This document shows, piece after piece, positions 3,085 through 6,540 of a stretch of DNA of 64,000 nucleotides. The stretch comes from Streptomyces harbinensis. Its GTDB lineage: Bacteria; Actinomycetota; Actinomycetes; Streptomycetales; Streptomycetaceae. The notes under the pieces are model-generated. The model worked only from the letters and a program-made list of their open reading frames with translations. It had not been told where the DNA came from and did no database searches. Position numbers and translations under genes: made by a program. Position 1 is the stretch's first letter; each line of letters opens with the position of its first letter. The DNA lies in the NCBI RefSeq assembly GCF_900116145.1, contig NZ_FPAB01000001.1, forward strand, positions 496,001-560,000. Direction: 5' to 3'.

Positions 3085-3930
3085 CTACACGTAGCTTCCG
3101 GCCGGTTCCGCCGCCGTCCAGTCGATGATCTGGACGGCCGCCCCCGCCGCTTCCAGGCCCCGGCAGTGCGCGTGGTGCCTGCGGTGGATCTCCTCCAGCC
3201 GCAGGTTGCCGTGGAAGGCGGGCAGCGCCAGCAGCCGGCGCGCGTACGTCCACAGCCAGGGGTGGTCCGCGATCCGCTGCACCGTGTCCGCGCCCAGGTG
3301 CCAGCGGTGCACCGTGTCCAGTTGCACCAGGGTGACCCACAGCCGGACATCGGCCGCCGTGATCCGTGCGCCCAGCAGGTACGGGCCGCCCGGCTCCGCC
3401 AGCCGTTCCTCCACCGCGTCCAGCGCCGCCAGCAGTTCGGCGGTGGCGCCCGTGTCCGCCTCCCGCCGGCCAGCCCGCTGCGCGGCGGCGTCGATCCCGT
3501 TCTCGCACAGCTCGCCCAGCGCCGCGATCTCCGCCTCGGCCGCGGCCGGGTACAGCTCGGGGGCGTCCGGCCCGCGGAAGCGGGTGGCCAGGTCCCGCAG
3601 GATGTGCGGGGCGTGGTTGCTGACGATCCGTCCCGTCCAGCGGTCGCGCAGGACGGGCGCGACGGCCGGGCCGGTGAAGCCGTGCCGGGTGGCGGCGTAC
3701 GCGCCGTGCAGCGCGCTGTAGCCGCCCTCGGCGCGGTCGGGGACGGCGGGCAGCGGGGTGAGCGGCACGCTGTCCGCAAGGCCCAGCAGCGCGTGGGTGA
3801 TGGCGATCCGCAGACAGCCCGGACAGGACAGGGAGAGGGACAGGTCGTAGCGGTGCGGGGCGGAGTGGAAGCCACTGCGGGCGTCGGCGAAGATCCGGCC
3901 CCGGAACTGCGGCGCGGCGGTGTGGGACAT
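3085..3930 (-). CDS. Glutathionyl-hydroquinone reductase-like (Xi-class GST-like) protein
   Basis: 281 residues, ATG at 3930 preceded by AAGGAGAG. The order RYDLSLSLSCPGCLR (thioredoxin-fold N-terminal half), GRIVSNHAPHILRDL and a helical half with ITAADVRLWVTLVQLD matches the ECM4/YqjG family, which reduces glutathionyl- or mycothiol-conjugated hydroquinones. The family active site is normally CPWAHR; here it is CPGCLR, so the cysteine is kept, the W-A-H is lost and a second cysteine is gained. A small leader-like ORF (4011-4127) lies 80 bp upstream on the same strand, suggesting sulfur-linked control. Streptomycetes use mycothiol, so the co-substrate is probably not glutathione. Confidence 0.75.
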   Translation of the reverse strand: MSHTAAPQFRGRIFADARSGFHSAPHRYDLSLSLSCPGCLRIAITHALLGLADSVPLTPLPAVPDRAEGGYSALHGAYAATRHGFTGPAVAPVLRDRWTGRIVSNHAPHILRDLATRFRGPDAPELYPAAAEAEIAALGELCENGIDAAAQRAGRREADTGATAELLAALDAVEERLAEPGGPYLLGARITAADVRLWVTLVQLDTVHRWHLGADTVQRIADHPWLWTYARRLLALPAFHGNLRLEEIHRRHHAHCRGLEAAGAAVQIIDWTAAEPAGSYV

Positions 3931-4010
3931 GACTCTCCTTGGGGCGCACGGGGTGAGAGGGCATGCGAAACGGCGGCCTCTCACGGGGAGGGGCCGCCGG
4001 CGGGTGGAGG

Positions 4011-4127
4011 CTACGCCGCGCTGGAGGTGCGCAGCAGATCGATGTGACGGCGGGAGGTGAGCAGGGGCAGCGGGCGTCGCCGGACGGTGGTGTCCGGACA
4101 ACCGGGCTCCGTGCCACCACCGTTCAT
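4011..4127 (-). CDS. Putative leader peptide (SRRHIDLLRTSSAA type)
   Basis: A 38-codon ORF ending LLTSRRHIDLLRTSSAA and then stop, 80 bp upstream of the GST-like gene on the same strand. The core R-H-I-D-L-L-R-x-x-S-A matches short Streptomyces leader peptides that I recall being annotated before sulfur-assimilation genes. The start ATG at 4127 follows a GGGTGGGG stretch. A second ORF of the same type precedes the neighbouring sulfonate-monooxygenase gene. Role as a translated attenuator is inferred, not shown. Confidence 0.6.
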   Translation of the reverse strand: MNGGGTEPGCPDTTVRRRPLPLLTSRRHIDLLRTSSAA

Positions 4128-4215
4128 GAAGTGCCCCACCCGTCCCGCTCGTCCACCGGTGCGGGATCCTGCGCCGGGACCAGCCCGGCACAGGACCATG
4201 ACCTCGGATCGCCCG

Positions 4216-5298
4216 TCAGAGGGCGGCCTCGGCGAGCTGTGCGTCGCGCTTGGCCACTTCTTCCCGGACGATCGGGATGACATGGCGGCCGAAGTCGATC
4301 GCGTCGCCGAGCAGGTCGTAACCCCGCGCCGAGATGATGTCCACTCCGAGGTCGTAGTAATCCAGGAGCGCCTGGGCAACTGTCTCCGGAGTGCCGACGA
4401 GCGCGTTGGAGTTGCCGGCCCCGCCGGTGGCGGCTGCGGTCGGGGTCCACAGGGCGCGGTCGAAGCGTTCGCCGCGCTCGGCGAGGGCGATCAGCCGCTG
4501 CGAGCCGGTGTTCTCCGGGTCGCGCTGCGGGCCGCGGGCGGCGCGGATGGCGCCGACGGTGCGGTGTGCCTTCTCCCAGGCGAGTTCCTCGGTGGGCGCG
4601 ATGATCGGCCGGAACGCCACCTGGATGCGCGGTACTTCCTTGCGGCCGGCGGCTGCCGCGGCCTGCCGTACGGACTCGATCTGCTCGGCGGTCTCGGCGA
4701 GCGGTTCGCCCCACAGGCAGTAGATGTCGGCCTCGGCGCCGCCGGCGGCGTACGCGGCGGGCGAGGAGCCGCCGAACGACACGCCGGGGCGGGGCTGCTG
4801 GACCGGGAAGACGTCGCTCACATAGTCCCGGAACCGGTAGAAGTCGCCTTCGTGGTCGAAGGGTTCGCGGCTGGTCCAGATCTTCTTGACGACGCGGATG
4901 TACTCGCGAGTGCGGGCGTACCGCTCGTCCTTGGTGAGGGTGTCGCCCTCCCGCTGCTGTTCGTGGTCGCTGCCGCCGGTGATGAAGTGGACGGTGAGCC
5001 GGCCGCCGCTGAGCTGATCGAGGGAGGCGAACACCCGGGCGGCGTAGGTGGGGTAGGAGATGTTGGGCCGGTGGGCGAGGAGGATCTGGAGCCGGTCGAG
5101 CCGGCTCGCGAGCAGCGCGGCCCCGGTGGCGGGGTCGGGCGAGCCGGAGCTGTAGGCGAACAGCACCCGGTCCCAGCCGTGATCCTCATGGGCACGGGCC
5201 AGCCGGAGGGTGTACTCGGGGTCGAACGCGCCGCCGGAGCGCGGCGATGTCTCGGAGCCGTCGTTGGTCGCGGCGATGCCAAGGAATTCCACGGGCAT
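4216..5298 (-). CDS. LLM-class FMNH2-dependent monooxygenase, SsuD-like
   Basis: 360 residues. The N-terminal FDPEYTLRLARAHEDHGWDRVLFAYSS-type segment, LLAHRPNISYPTYAARVFAS and RLTVHFITGG are the beta-barrel blocks of alkanesulfonate monooxygenases (SsuD/MsuD), which use reduced flavin and O2 to release sulfite from organosulfonates. Length fits the family. No flavin reductase or sulfonate ABC transporter is adjacent. The ATG at 5298 gives the usual MxVEFLG start. A 27-codon leader-like ORF (5358-5441) lies 59 bp upstream. Sulfonate use is likely; the exact substrate is not readable. Confidence 0.85.
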   Translation of the reverse strand: MPVEFLGIAATNDGSETSPRSGGAFDPEYTLRLARAHEDHGWDRVLFAYSSGSPDPATGAALLASRLDRLQILLAHRPNISYPTYAARVFASLDQLSGGRLTVHFITGGSDHEQQREGDTLTKDERYARTREYIRVVKKIWTSREPFDHEGDFYRFRDYVSDVFPVQQPRPGVSFGGSSPAAYAAGGAEADIYCLWGEPLAETAEQIESVRQAAAAAGRKEVPRIQVAFRPIIAPTEELAWEKAHRTVGAIRAARGPQRDPENTGSQRLIALAERGERFDRALWTPTAAATGGAGNSNALVGTPETVAQALLDYYDLGVDIISARGYDLLGDAIDFGRHVIPIVREEVAKRDAQLAEAAL

Positions 5299-5357
5299 GG
5301 CGGAAGAGGCCTCTCGGGCGAAAAGGAAGCGGAACGGAAGGGGATGTGAGCCGGGGT

Positions 5358-5441
5358 TCACCCACGGCGCCAACAGGCCGCGGACCACACCCGACCGAAG
5401 TCGATATGCCCACGAATCACCAACCGCCGCTGGGGCCTCAT
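5358..5441 (-). CDS. Putative leader peptide (RGHIDFGRVWSAAC type)
   Basis: A 27-codon ORF with G-rich sequence just before its ATG at 5441. The peptide ends VIRGHIDFGRVWSAACWRRG; the core H-I-D-x-x-R-x-x-S-A-x-C is the same pattern as the ORF at 4011-4127. It sits 59 bp upstream of the SsuD-like monooxygenase on the same strand. A cysteine codon near its end would suit a ribosome-stalling sensor of cysteine supply; that is inference. Confidence 0.6.
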   Translation of the reverse strand: MRPQRRLVIRGHIDFGRVWSAACWRRG

Positions 5442-5596
5442 CCCCCCAGTGCACCAGCACCGCACGCCGCCGTCAACGGTCCCCCGGCCGGCCGACGCGC
5501 GCCGGGGGCGCGGGAGACCGGTGTCCTGCCGGCCCGGGGCCGCCACCTCGGACCAGATCGCGCGGCAGCGGCAACCCCGTGCGGATCAGCGTGCGG

Positions 5597-5797
5597 TCAT
5601 GGCCGGCGCAGCAGGTGGTCGGCCTTCCCGGCCTTGATGTCACGGATCATGGTGGCCAGCGCCTCCCGGGAATCCGTGAGATACACATCCTCCCGGCCGG
5701 CCACCGCGATGTAGGCATTCCCCTCCGCGTCGGTGCCCAACCGGAAGCAGCTGGAGCTCTCGGCGCAGAAGGGTTCCTCCCAGAGAATCTTGCCCAT
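5597..5797 (-). CDS. DUF397 protein, copy A
   Basis: 66 residues, nearly identical to the two genes upstream. It carries SSSCFRLGTDAEGNAYIAV followed by VYLTDSREALATMIRDIKAG, the DUF397 pattern in which F-R-D/S-x-x-x-P/A precedes an L/F...I/K helix. DUF397 proteins accompany XRE/DUF5753 regulators in streptomycetes and are thought to be small partner or antitoxin-like proteins. Copy A has lost the stop used in copies B and C and runs three residues longer (RRP). Confidence 0.85.
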   Translation of the reverse strand: MGKILWEEPFCAESSSCFRLGTDAEGNAYIAVAGREDVYLTDSREALATMIRDIKAGKADHLLRRP

Positions 5798-5821: not shown

Positions 5822-6013
5822 CTACAGCAGGTGGTCGGCCTTCCCGGCCTTGATGTCACGGATCATGGTGGCCAGCGCCTCCCGGGAATCCGTGAGATAC
5901 ACGCCCTCCCGGCCGGCCACCGCGATGTAGGCATTCCCCTCCGCGTCGGTGCCCAGCCGGAAGCAGTTGGAGCTCTCGGCGCAGAAGGGTTCCTCCCAGA
6001 GGATTTTGCTCAT
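5822..6013 (-). CDS. DUF397 protein, copy B
   Basis: 63 residues, differing from copy A at only a few positions (SSN for SSS, REG for RED). The almost unchanged DNA sequence indicates recent tandem duplication rather than ancient paralogy. It lies 24 bp upstream of copy A with its own ATG at 6013 and a purine-rich GGAGGAGCC ahead of it, so the copies are probably co-transcribed but individually translated. Confidence 0.85.
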   Translation of the reverse strand: MSKILWEEPFCAESSNCFRLGTDAEGNAYIAVAGREGVYLTDSREALATMIRDIKAGKADHLL

Positions 6014-6066: not shown

Positions 6067-6258
6067 CTACAGCAGGTGGTCGGCCTTTCCGGCCTTGATG
6101 TCACGGATCATGGTGGCCAGCGCCTCGCGGGAGTCCGTGAGGTACACATCCTCCCGGCCGGCCACCGCGATGTAGGCATTGCCCTCCGCGTCGGTGCCCA
6201 GCCGGAAGCAGTTGTTGCCCTCTCCGCAGAACGCCTCTTCCCATGTGATGCCCTTCAA
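6067..6258 (-). CDS. DUF397 protein, copy C
   Basis: 63 residues. The last ~45 match copies A and B almost exactly, while the first ~15 (KGITWEEAFCGEGNN) diverge. It begins 9 bp after the stop of the truncated XRE gene at 6268, the usual XRE-DUF397 gene order, so it is probably the parent copy from which A and B arose. Confidence 0.85.
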   Translation of the reverse strand: MKGITWEEAFCGEGNNCFRLGTDAEGNAYIAVAGREDVYLTDSREALATMIRDIKAGKADHLL

Positions 6259-6267
6259 AGCGCCTCC

Positions 6268-6540
6268 CTATAGTTCGCTGATGATGGCGTGGATGAGATC
6301 GCGCGAGGCCTTGGCCGACAGCGTCTCCGAGTCCATCCACTCCACGTGGGCCCGATACTTCGCGAGTTGCGCCTCACTGTGCAAGAACTCGGGTCCATGT
6401 GCCGAGTCCAGCTGGGCGGTATCGAGCTGAGGAACCGCCCCTTCCGAGTAGAGCAGTGCGTGTCCGGCACCGGGAAAGCTGCCGCGCTCCACCGGGATGA
6501 TCCGGACCGTGATGTGGTCGCGCTCGCTCACCGCCAATAG
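6268..6540 (-). pseudogene. XRE-family regulator remnant (C-terminal DUF5753 only)
   Basis: About 90 codons ending IISEL-stop match the C-terminal end of the DUF5753 sensor domain of Streptomyces XRE regulators (SERDHITVRIIPVERGSFPG, then VPQLDTAQLDSAHGPEFL). Full-length relatives have ~280 residues with an N-terminal helix-turn-helix; here similarity stops abruptly at about 6540 and the upstream frame contains no HTH. The gene is therefore 5'-truncated, probably by a deletion that brought the ATP-binding gene at 6592 next to it. Confidence 0.75.

Follow-up and report, generated by a model that had tools for sequence, protein, structure and literature searches.

The window, as the whole stretch of 64,000 nucleotides of Streptomyces harbinensis DNA analysed here is called, contains a GST-like gene and an SsuD-like gene which are each preceded on the same strand by a very short ORF with a similar peptide sequence. 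This raises the question of whether the two ORFs are leader peptides that couple both genes to the cysteine or sulfur status of the cell, and by which route they would do so. An earlier note had described the pair as HID-type ORFs of 38 and 27 codons located 80 and 59 nt ahead of their genes, a description with which the ORFs, their translations and their coordinates agree. The features are as follows.

3085..3930, minus strand: GST-like gene (Pfam GST_C_2); among solved structures, YqjG / glutathionyl-hydroquinone reductase / Xi GSTs are the closest by sequence
3931..4010, minus strand: spacer between leader 1 and the GST-like gene, 80 nt, C-skew 0.30, rut-like by composition only
4011..4127, minus strand: leader 1 ORF, 38 aa, MNGGGTEPGCPDTTVRRRPLPLLTSRRHIDLLRTSSAA, ATG at 4127 and stop at 4013-4011, precedes the GST-like gene
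4014..4061, minus strand: leader 1 core, LTSRRHIDLLRTSSAA; the UGU Cys codon usual at this position is replaced by the stop at 4013-4011 (TAG)
4216..5298, minus strand: SsuD-like FMN-dependent monooxygenase gene (Pfam Bac_luciferase); the best NCBIfam match is TIGR03565 at 197 bits, below the equivalog cut-off of 518
5299..5357, minus strand: spacer between leader 2 and the SsuD-like gene, 59 nt, C-skew 0.49, rut-like by composition only
5358..5441, minus strand: leader 2 ORF, 27 aa, MRPQRRLVIRGHIDFGRVWSAACWRRG, ATG at 5441 and stop at 5360-5358, precedes the SsuD-like gene
5373..5375, minus strand: UGU Cys codon closing the leader 2 core, putative sensor codon
5472..5476, minus strand: TTGAC, a -35-like box 35 nt 5' of the leader 2 ATG, compatible with a leaderless transcript

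In the ORF translations leader 1 ends in TSRRHIDLLRTSSAA at its C-terminus and leader 2 contains the core RGHIDFGRVWSAAC. Elsewhere on the minus strand, three tandem and nearly identical ORFs of 63-66 aa (5597-5797, 5822-6013 and 6067-6258), which we take to be DUF397-like, adjoin the apparent C-terminus of a regulator, located at about 6268-6540.

The core shared by the two leaders is far above chance. A 17-column matrix built from nine other leaders of the same genome, with both window leaders excluded, ranks the core of leader 2 first and that of leader 1 second among the 109,173 six-frame positions of the window, with scores of 34.9 and 31.1 against 10.9 for the best remaining position (mean of the remaining positions -22.4, sd 5.8). 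Leader 1 matches the NCBIfam family NF042934 'putative leader peptide' (cis_reg_atten) at 31 bits, above the curated cut-off of 27. Leader 2 has no match to NF042934 at E<=1, nor is it among the 11 matches of that model in its own genome; it is matched only by NF042936, the Ms4527A family, at 23.9 bits, which is under the cut-off of 45, as are the 15.5 bits that leader 1 attains with the same model. Leader 2 is joined to the remaining leaders only via the genome-derived profile from which it was itself left out. Neither peptide is matched by Pfam at E<=1, and Rfam reports no family over the window at gathering scores. Judged from these matches, both ORFs belong to the actinobacterial 'putative leader peptide' family NF042934, which has Ms4527A as a mycobacterial relative, and are members or near-members of the mycobacterial cysteine-responsive short-ORF kind. 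The two ORFs had been called unrelated, a claim that does not hold, since their membership in one family means that the likeness reflects this common membership together with selection, not convergence of unrelated ORFs.

Matches to NF042934 that lie under its cut-off mean little alone, since the model also produces weak matches at E<=1, never above cut-off, in 6 of 14 control genomes. In the own genome, 5 of its 11 matches at E<=1 are above cut-off, and one (L011, 16 bits) is probably due to chance and was left out of the set of 11 leaders used below. That set comes from a profile built from all own leaders, which finds 11 in the genome including leader 2, these matches not being independent of the profile. 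The same profile detects leaders in 15/15 genomes of the genus at E<=1e-5, the own genome counted, and in 50/60 genomes of the class at E<=1e-4, a sample that includes the own genome and three congeners. The genes behind the 11 own leaders resemble, by annotation from sequence, a sulfur regulon. Seven have a likely sulfur role (sulfite reductase, rhodanese, cysteine dioxygenase, two FMN reductases, an LLM monooxygenase and the SsuD-like protein), and the others encode a family-5 solute-binding protein, an SDF symporter, a DUF1684 protein and the GST-like protein. The earlier note had suggested searching for the same peptide ahead of other sulfur genes; it occurs ahead of these genes with a likely sulfur role. 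At one locus (L191; G000:C16, 745.4-745.7 kb), two divergent HID leaders stand back to back ahead of an FMN reductase and a cysteine dioxygenase.

The proposed tie of the GST-like gene to sulfur metabolism is supported by the leader being kept in relatives and by its surroundings. In G007, the one relative annotated with Pfam, the GST-like gene lies inside an organosulfur cluster, where four HID leaders occur over a distance of about 23 kb. The cluster includes two further LLM monooxygenases, an FMN reductase, solute-binding proteins, an ABC permease and the SsuD-like gene, and a TauD-type dioxygenase is found further on. This gene neighbourhood grounds the probable link better than the leader alone could, and the findings would assign this GST-like enzyme to sulfur metabolism.

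Orthologues of the GST-like gene were collected from 8 loci in named genomes, all Streptomyces, and from 30 loci in relatives, the window locus counted; the leader core is present ahead of the gene in 7/8 and 27/30 of these, respectively. The four loci left out of the resulting 34 GST leaders (L051, L056, L079 and L016) are coreless, with only 54 nt upstream available at L016 and a partial match at L079. For the SsuD-like gene the core is present in 13/14 close orthologous loci, again including that of the window; coreless L028 and the likewise coreless L034 and L035, which have 56-57% identity, are excluded, and the set of 13 LLM leaders comes from close orthologues. Over the core and its flank, pN/pS of the GST leaders is 0.20 in frame versus 2.86 and 2.62 in the other frames, and that of the LLM (SsuD-like) leaders is 0.29 in frame versus 1.43 and 2.23. 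Selection acts on the amino-acid sequence of the leaders, as had been argued from the sharing of the core, and this in-frame constraint implies that the leader ORFs are very probably translated. The conserved segment would read L-[TV]-x-R-x-[HAC]-[IV]-D-[LF]-x-R-V-x-S-A-x and would be followed by a single, rare UGU Cys codon.

This codon was examined in 137 leaders. They comprise every one of the 109 matches found in the genus outside the own genome (14 genomes), plus 28 loci from the class sample, two of which are of the genus. The core-end codon is TGT in 127, TGC in 3 and not a Cys codon in 7 (genus: 99, 3 and 7 of 109; class sample: TGT in 28 of 28), and at least six of the seven leaders without a core-end Cys are of the GST type. 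The other Cys codons in the same 137 leaders are TGC in 90 cases and TGT in 26. In the genes behind a 96-leader subset, TGC is used 142 times and TGT 11 times (11/153), a usage from which the core-end codon departs strongly (Fisher 1e-62). Within the window genes the counts are 90 TGC and 13 TGT, and at this rate (13/103) the probability that the core-end Cys is TGT in 10/10 of the own-genome leaders having it is 1e-9. Synonymous codon bias in the 96-leader subset amounts to 3.49 bits at the core-end Cys column, and each of the other 18 columns has 1.2 bits or less. In 46 of the 57 leaders of this subset with additional Cys residues, every additional Cys is encoded by TGC while the core-end one is TGT. 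The leader stop follows the core-end Cys after 0-4 codons in 81/95 leaders, and the codon directly after it starts with C in 86/95.

The leaders were chosen by an amino-acid profile, which should not favour one codon over its synonym. They are not phylogenetically independent, and the 95 leaders comprise 56 distinct cores, 54 of which are all TGT. TGT is also more frequent among the leaders' remaining Cys codons (26/116) than in the downstream genes (11/153). In two of the three leaders with a core-end TGC, L175 (G009:C1:5697532) and L227 (G002:C124:189062), an earlier Cys is encoded by TGT, as if the slow codon had moved; this does not apply to the third, L114.

Both Cys codons would be read by a single tRNA-Cys with the anticodon GCA, which decodes UGU by wobble; the window itself contains no tRNA genes. 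From the codon pattern we infer that the core-end UGU is the sensing codon and that slow wobble reading is its point. A single, presumably wobble-read codon that is nearly fixed across leaders sampled class-wide ahead of a sulfur regulon would provide a clean natural test of whether codon choice tunes the sensitivity of an attenuator.

The position of promoter-like elements is informative for part of the leaders. TTGAC lies 35-38 nt 5' of an in-frame start codon (ATG or GTG) in 27/107 leaders versus 0 in a control window further upstream, a count for which the start codon closest to a distance of 37 nt was used per leader and any start was accepted in the control. A box at this distance would put the transcription start on the start codon itself, the arrangement reported for mycobacterial short ORFs, and part of the leaders would be leaderless. 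Leader 2 has the box at 35 nt and leader 1 has no clear TTGAC box. Many of the relatives' GST leaders (many of L052-L075) carry, by eye, TTGAC, about 17 nt, GACACT and then a conserved GGGAATCCTAGTGAA..GGTAGGGAA stretch before the ATG, which holds the inverted repeat TTCCTA-N9-TAGGGAA and is possibly an operator; TTGAC/GACACT and the conserved 5' stretch are both missing, by eye, from window leader 1.

How the state of the leader might be passed on to the gene behind it is suggested by the composition of the spacers. Codon bias, spacers and pairing were all analysed on the 96-leader subset, of which 86, 81 or 72 leaders are left after dropping unusable downstream genes or spacers outside the length limits. 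The spacers are C-rich and G-poor, with a mean C-skew of 0.27 and 77% above 0.2 (n=86), versus 0.01 directly upstream of the leaders (p 1.7e-15); the first 300 nt of the downstream genes have a C-skew of 0.10. Ahead of 38 ordinary genes the C-skew is 0.03 and differs from that of 72 leader spacers (p 7e-15), a comparison in which downstream and control genes were called by a custom GC-frame rule and some starts may be wrong, and in which 10 of 48 control upstream regions (mean skew 0.22) were set aside for a loose match to the HID pattern. The skew is stronger in the genus sample, where it averages 0.29 and exceeds 0.2 in 90% (n=62), and weaker in the class sample (0.21, 42%, n=24). A scan of positions 3900-5700 found neither an intrinsic terminator nor a sigma-70 promoter, and TTTTT is present in 5/86 spacers. 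C-rich, G-poor RNA is the composition used by Rho, and the trait of a Rho attenuator, a C-rich and G-poor stretch past the leader stop with no intrinsic terminator, is found here at the level of composition. A C-rich spacer could instead merely keep the RNA open for re-initiation. In seven leaders (L021, L024, L026, L027, L029, L030 and L031) a conserved block, in which a GGGCC...GGCCC-type inverted repeat precedes a pyrimidine run, is visible by eye about 70 nt past the leader stop; a block of this type was not seen, by eye, in the 59-nt spacer of the window.

Family likeness, selection on the peptide, the near-fixed UGU, the rut-like composition of the spacers, the position of promoters at part of the leaders and the sulfur context can be combined in one model. 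On balance it is probable that the leaders are translated uORFs of the HID family in which the UGU gauges Cys-tRNA and Rho acts at the spacer, with leader 1 representing a sensor-less sub-class. We infer the following course of translation, stalling, Rho action and response. When Cys-tRNA is ample, the ribosome would pass the UGU and leave, the spacer would be naked, and Rho would load and end transcription before the sulfur gene is reached. When Cys-tRNA is scarce, the ribosome would linger at the UGU while the HID segment occupies the exit tunnel, and would cover the start of the spacer, allowing the gene to be expressed. UGU would have been chosen because, being wobble-read by the one tRNA-Cys, it would be the first codon to react when charging falls. 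Leader 2 would be of this UGU-gauge kind. A further-reaching form of the model, which we regard as a tentative possibility, is that HID is a true arrest peptide, the nascent segment in the tunnel being L-x-x-R-x-H-[IV]-D-[LF]-x-R-V-x-S-A, and that it renders the ribosome hypersensitive at the UGU. The leaders would then form a class-wide, codon-specific cysteine gauge acting via Rho in Actinomycetia, and the GST sub-class would arrest at the stop codon in response to another signal, perhaps thiol/quinone stress.

The strongest competitor of Rho-dependent control is translational attenuation without Rho, with the gene's RBS masked by the leader or spacer until it is released by a ribosome pausing at Cys. 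Attenuation of this type is reported, in the excerpts consulted, for relatives in M. smegmatis (PMC9031893, PMC13236596). Mean pairing between the SD region and the leader core (0.134) is indeed higher than all twelve means obtained after swapping leaders (0.095-0.132), and individual loci lie well above their own swap controls (L182, 0.55 vs 0.03; L178, 0.68 vs 0.12; L154, 0.50 vs 0.07). However, the mean excess rests on single loci with strong pairing (L132, L115, L178, L182 and L154), and a Wilcoxon test on the paired values of 81 loci does not reach significance (p 0.25). Orthologues of a single gene, moreover, have spacers of anything between 59 and 353 nt, which fits a lax site better than one fixed pairing. 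Masking may therefore apply at some loci, and as the general mechanism it is conceivable though doubtful.

For the favoured combination of a UGU gauge and Rho, leader 1 is the exception that needs a separate account. It contains no Cys codon within its core or after it. In its sub-class the core-end position is Cys in 0/34 GST leaders, Ser (AGC or AGT) in 18, a stop in 8 and something else in 8. A Cys occurs four codons earlier in 25/34, encoded by TGC in 24, and in 7/34 neither the core nor the codons up to the stop include a Cys. Plain Cys-tRNA sensing cannot, for this reason, be the mechanism of leader 1. The proposal of attenuation by cysteine or sulfur status thus has to be divided: it is well supported by the codon evidence for leader 2 and the family, where a near-invariant UGU lies near the stop, and fails in its simple cysteine form for leader 1. 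Leader 1 appears to represent a GST-specific sub-class in which the peptide is kept and the sensor codon is lost, and it probably acts via the nascent peptide at termination or through another signal. The sub-class would separate the role of the peptide from that of the codon. One leader from another genome (L229, G012:C1:5120066), LTRRLHIDLLRVCSATAPAL, also lacks a core-end Cys and is GST-type-like; in that genome the GST-like search found nothing at E<=1e-20.

Loss of the sensor from all 34 GST leaders, with a stop in its place in eight and no Cys from core to stop in seven, would also be expected if leader 1 were a decaying copy whose GST gene has lost cysteine control and whose ORF lingers by inertia, but this is improbable given the strong purifying selection on the core of the same leaders and its retention at 27/30 loci in relatives, that of the window included, and at 7/8 named loci. 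Similarly unlikely is that the conserved unit is an RNA structure with the peptide as a by-product: the core codons of the SsuD-like class fold into a UUCG-capped hairpin which in 10/13 LLM leaders (L021-L033, codons RDHIDFGRVWS) is within the most stable 2% of synonymous resamples, and the core Gly is GGT in 12/12 LLM leaders, a codon used for about 8% of the Gly residues of the downstream genes, but window leader 2 has no hairpin excess (fraction 0.5), two further leaders are at 0.065-0.07, GST leaders keep the same residues with free synonymous change, and codon bias across the 96 leaders is low in every column except that of the UGU. The structure-first reading was rejected on the grounds that its support is limited to the SsuD-like class and absent from window leader 2.

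The putative sensing at the UGU in leader 2 and a conserved peptide with a possible Rho site behind it recall TnaC, the leader of the tna operon of E. coli, which combines a conserved nascent peptide, arrest near the stop codon and a Rho site just behind. The ligand of TnaC is free tryptophan, and the likeness considered is functional. Within NCBIfam, NF042934 has the HIDLxR..SA core in common with leader 1, which differs in lacking the core-end Cys present in 130/137 of the relatives' leaders. The family is thus already named, and cysteine-responsive attenuation by short ORFs is, in the excerpts consulted, known from mycobacteria: polycysteine leaderless short ORFs have this role in M. smegmatis (Canestrari et al. 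2020; PMC9031893, PMC13236596, PMC9094748). These ORFs and Ms4527A (NF042936) likewise stand ahead of cysteine or sulfur operons with Cys near their end. As far as the excerpts go, they have a run of Cys where leader 2 has a single UGU and leader 1 has no Cys in or after the core. They are leaderless, which the promoter position fits in part of the leaders described here. For the mycobacterial relatives, translation attenuation with base-pairing over the SD is reported (PMC13236596), whereas masking is not significant here and the spacers are C-rich.

The leader peptides of cys operons in Mycobacterium spp. and P. acnes also have Cys codons near the stop and no terminator hairpin, and Rho was suggested for the mycobacterial ones via poorly conserved pyrimidine-rich motifs, a suggestion that its authors called weak (Seliverstov et al. 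2005; PMC1262725). They contain runs of Cys, and the excerpt of that paper mentions neither the HID core nor a fixed UGU. The uORFC-8-2 before cysS in Rhodobacterales is likewise an upstream ORF with Cys codons; according to the excerpt its two Cys codons are in tandem and mostly UGC, and an intrinsic terminator is present, unlike in the HID leaders (PMC8632094). For S. lividans, 8 leader peptides are given in the excerpt of PMC8079986, none of them for cysteine. Among open-licence papers, as represented by their listing and the start of their abstracts, no treatment of the HID core or of the fixed UGU was recognised. Neither the fixed UGU nor the GST sub-class without Cys nor the rut-like spacers were met in the open-licence literature searched, and within that scope all three appear to be new. 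In comparison with these systems, the findings suggest that a type of control described up to now from mycobacteria also has a variant linked to Rho.
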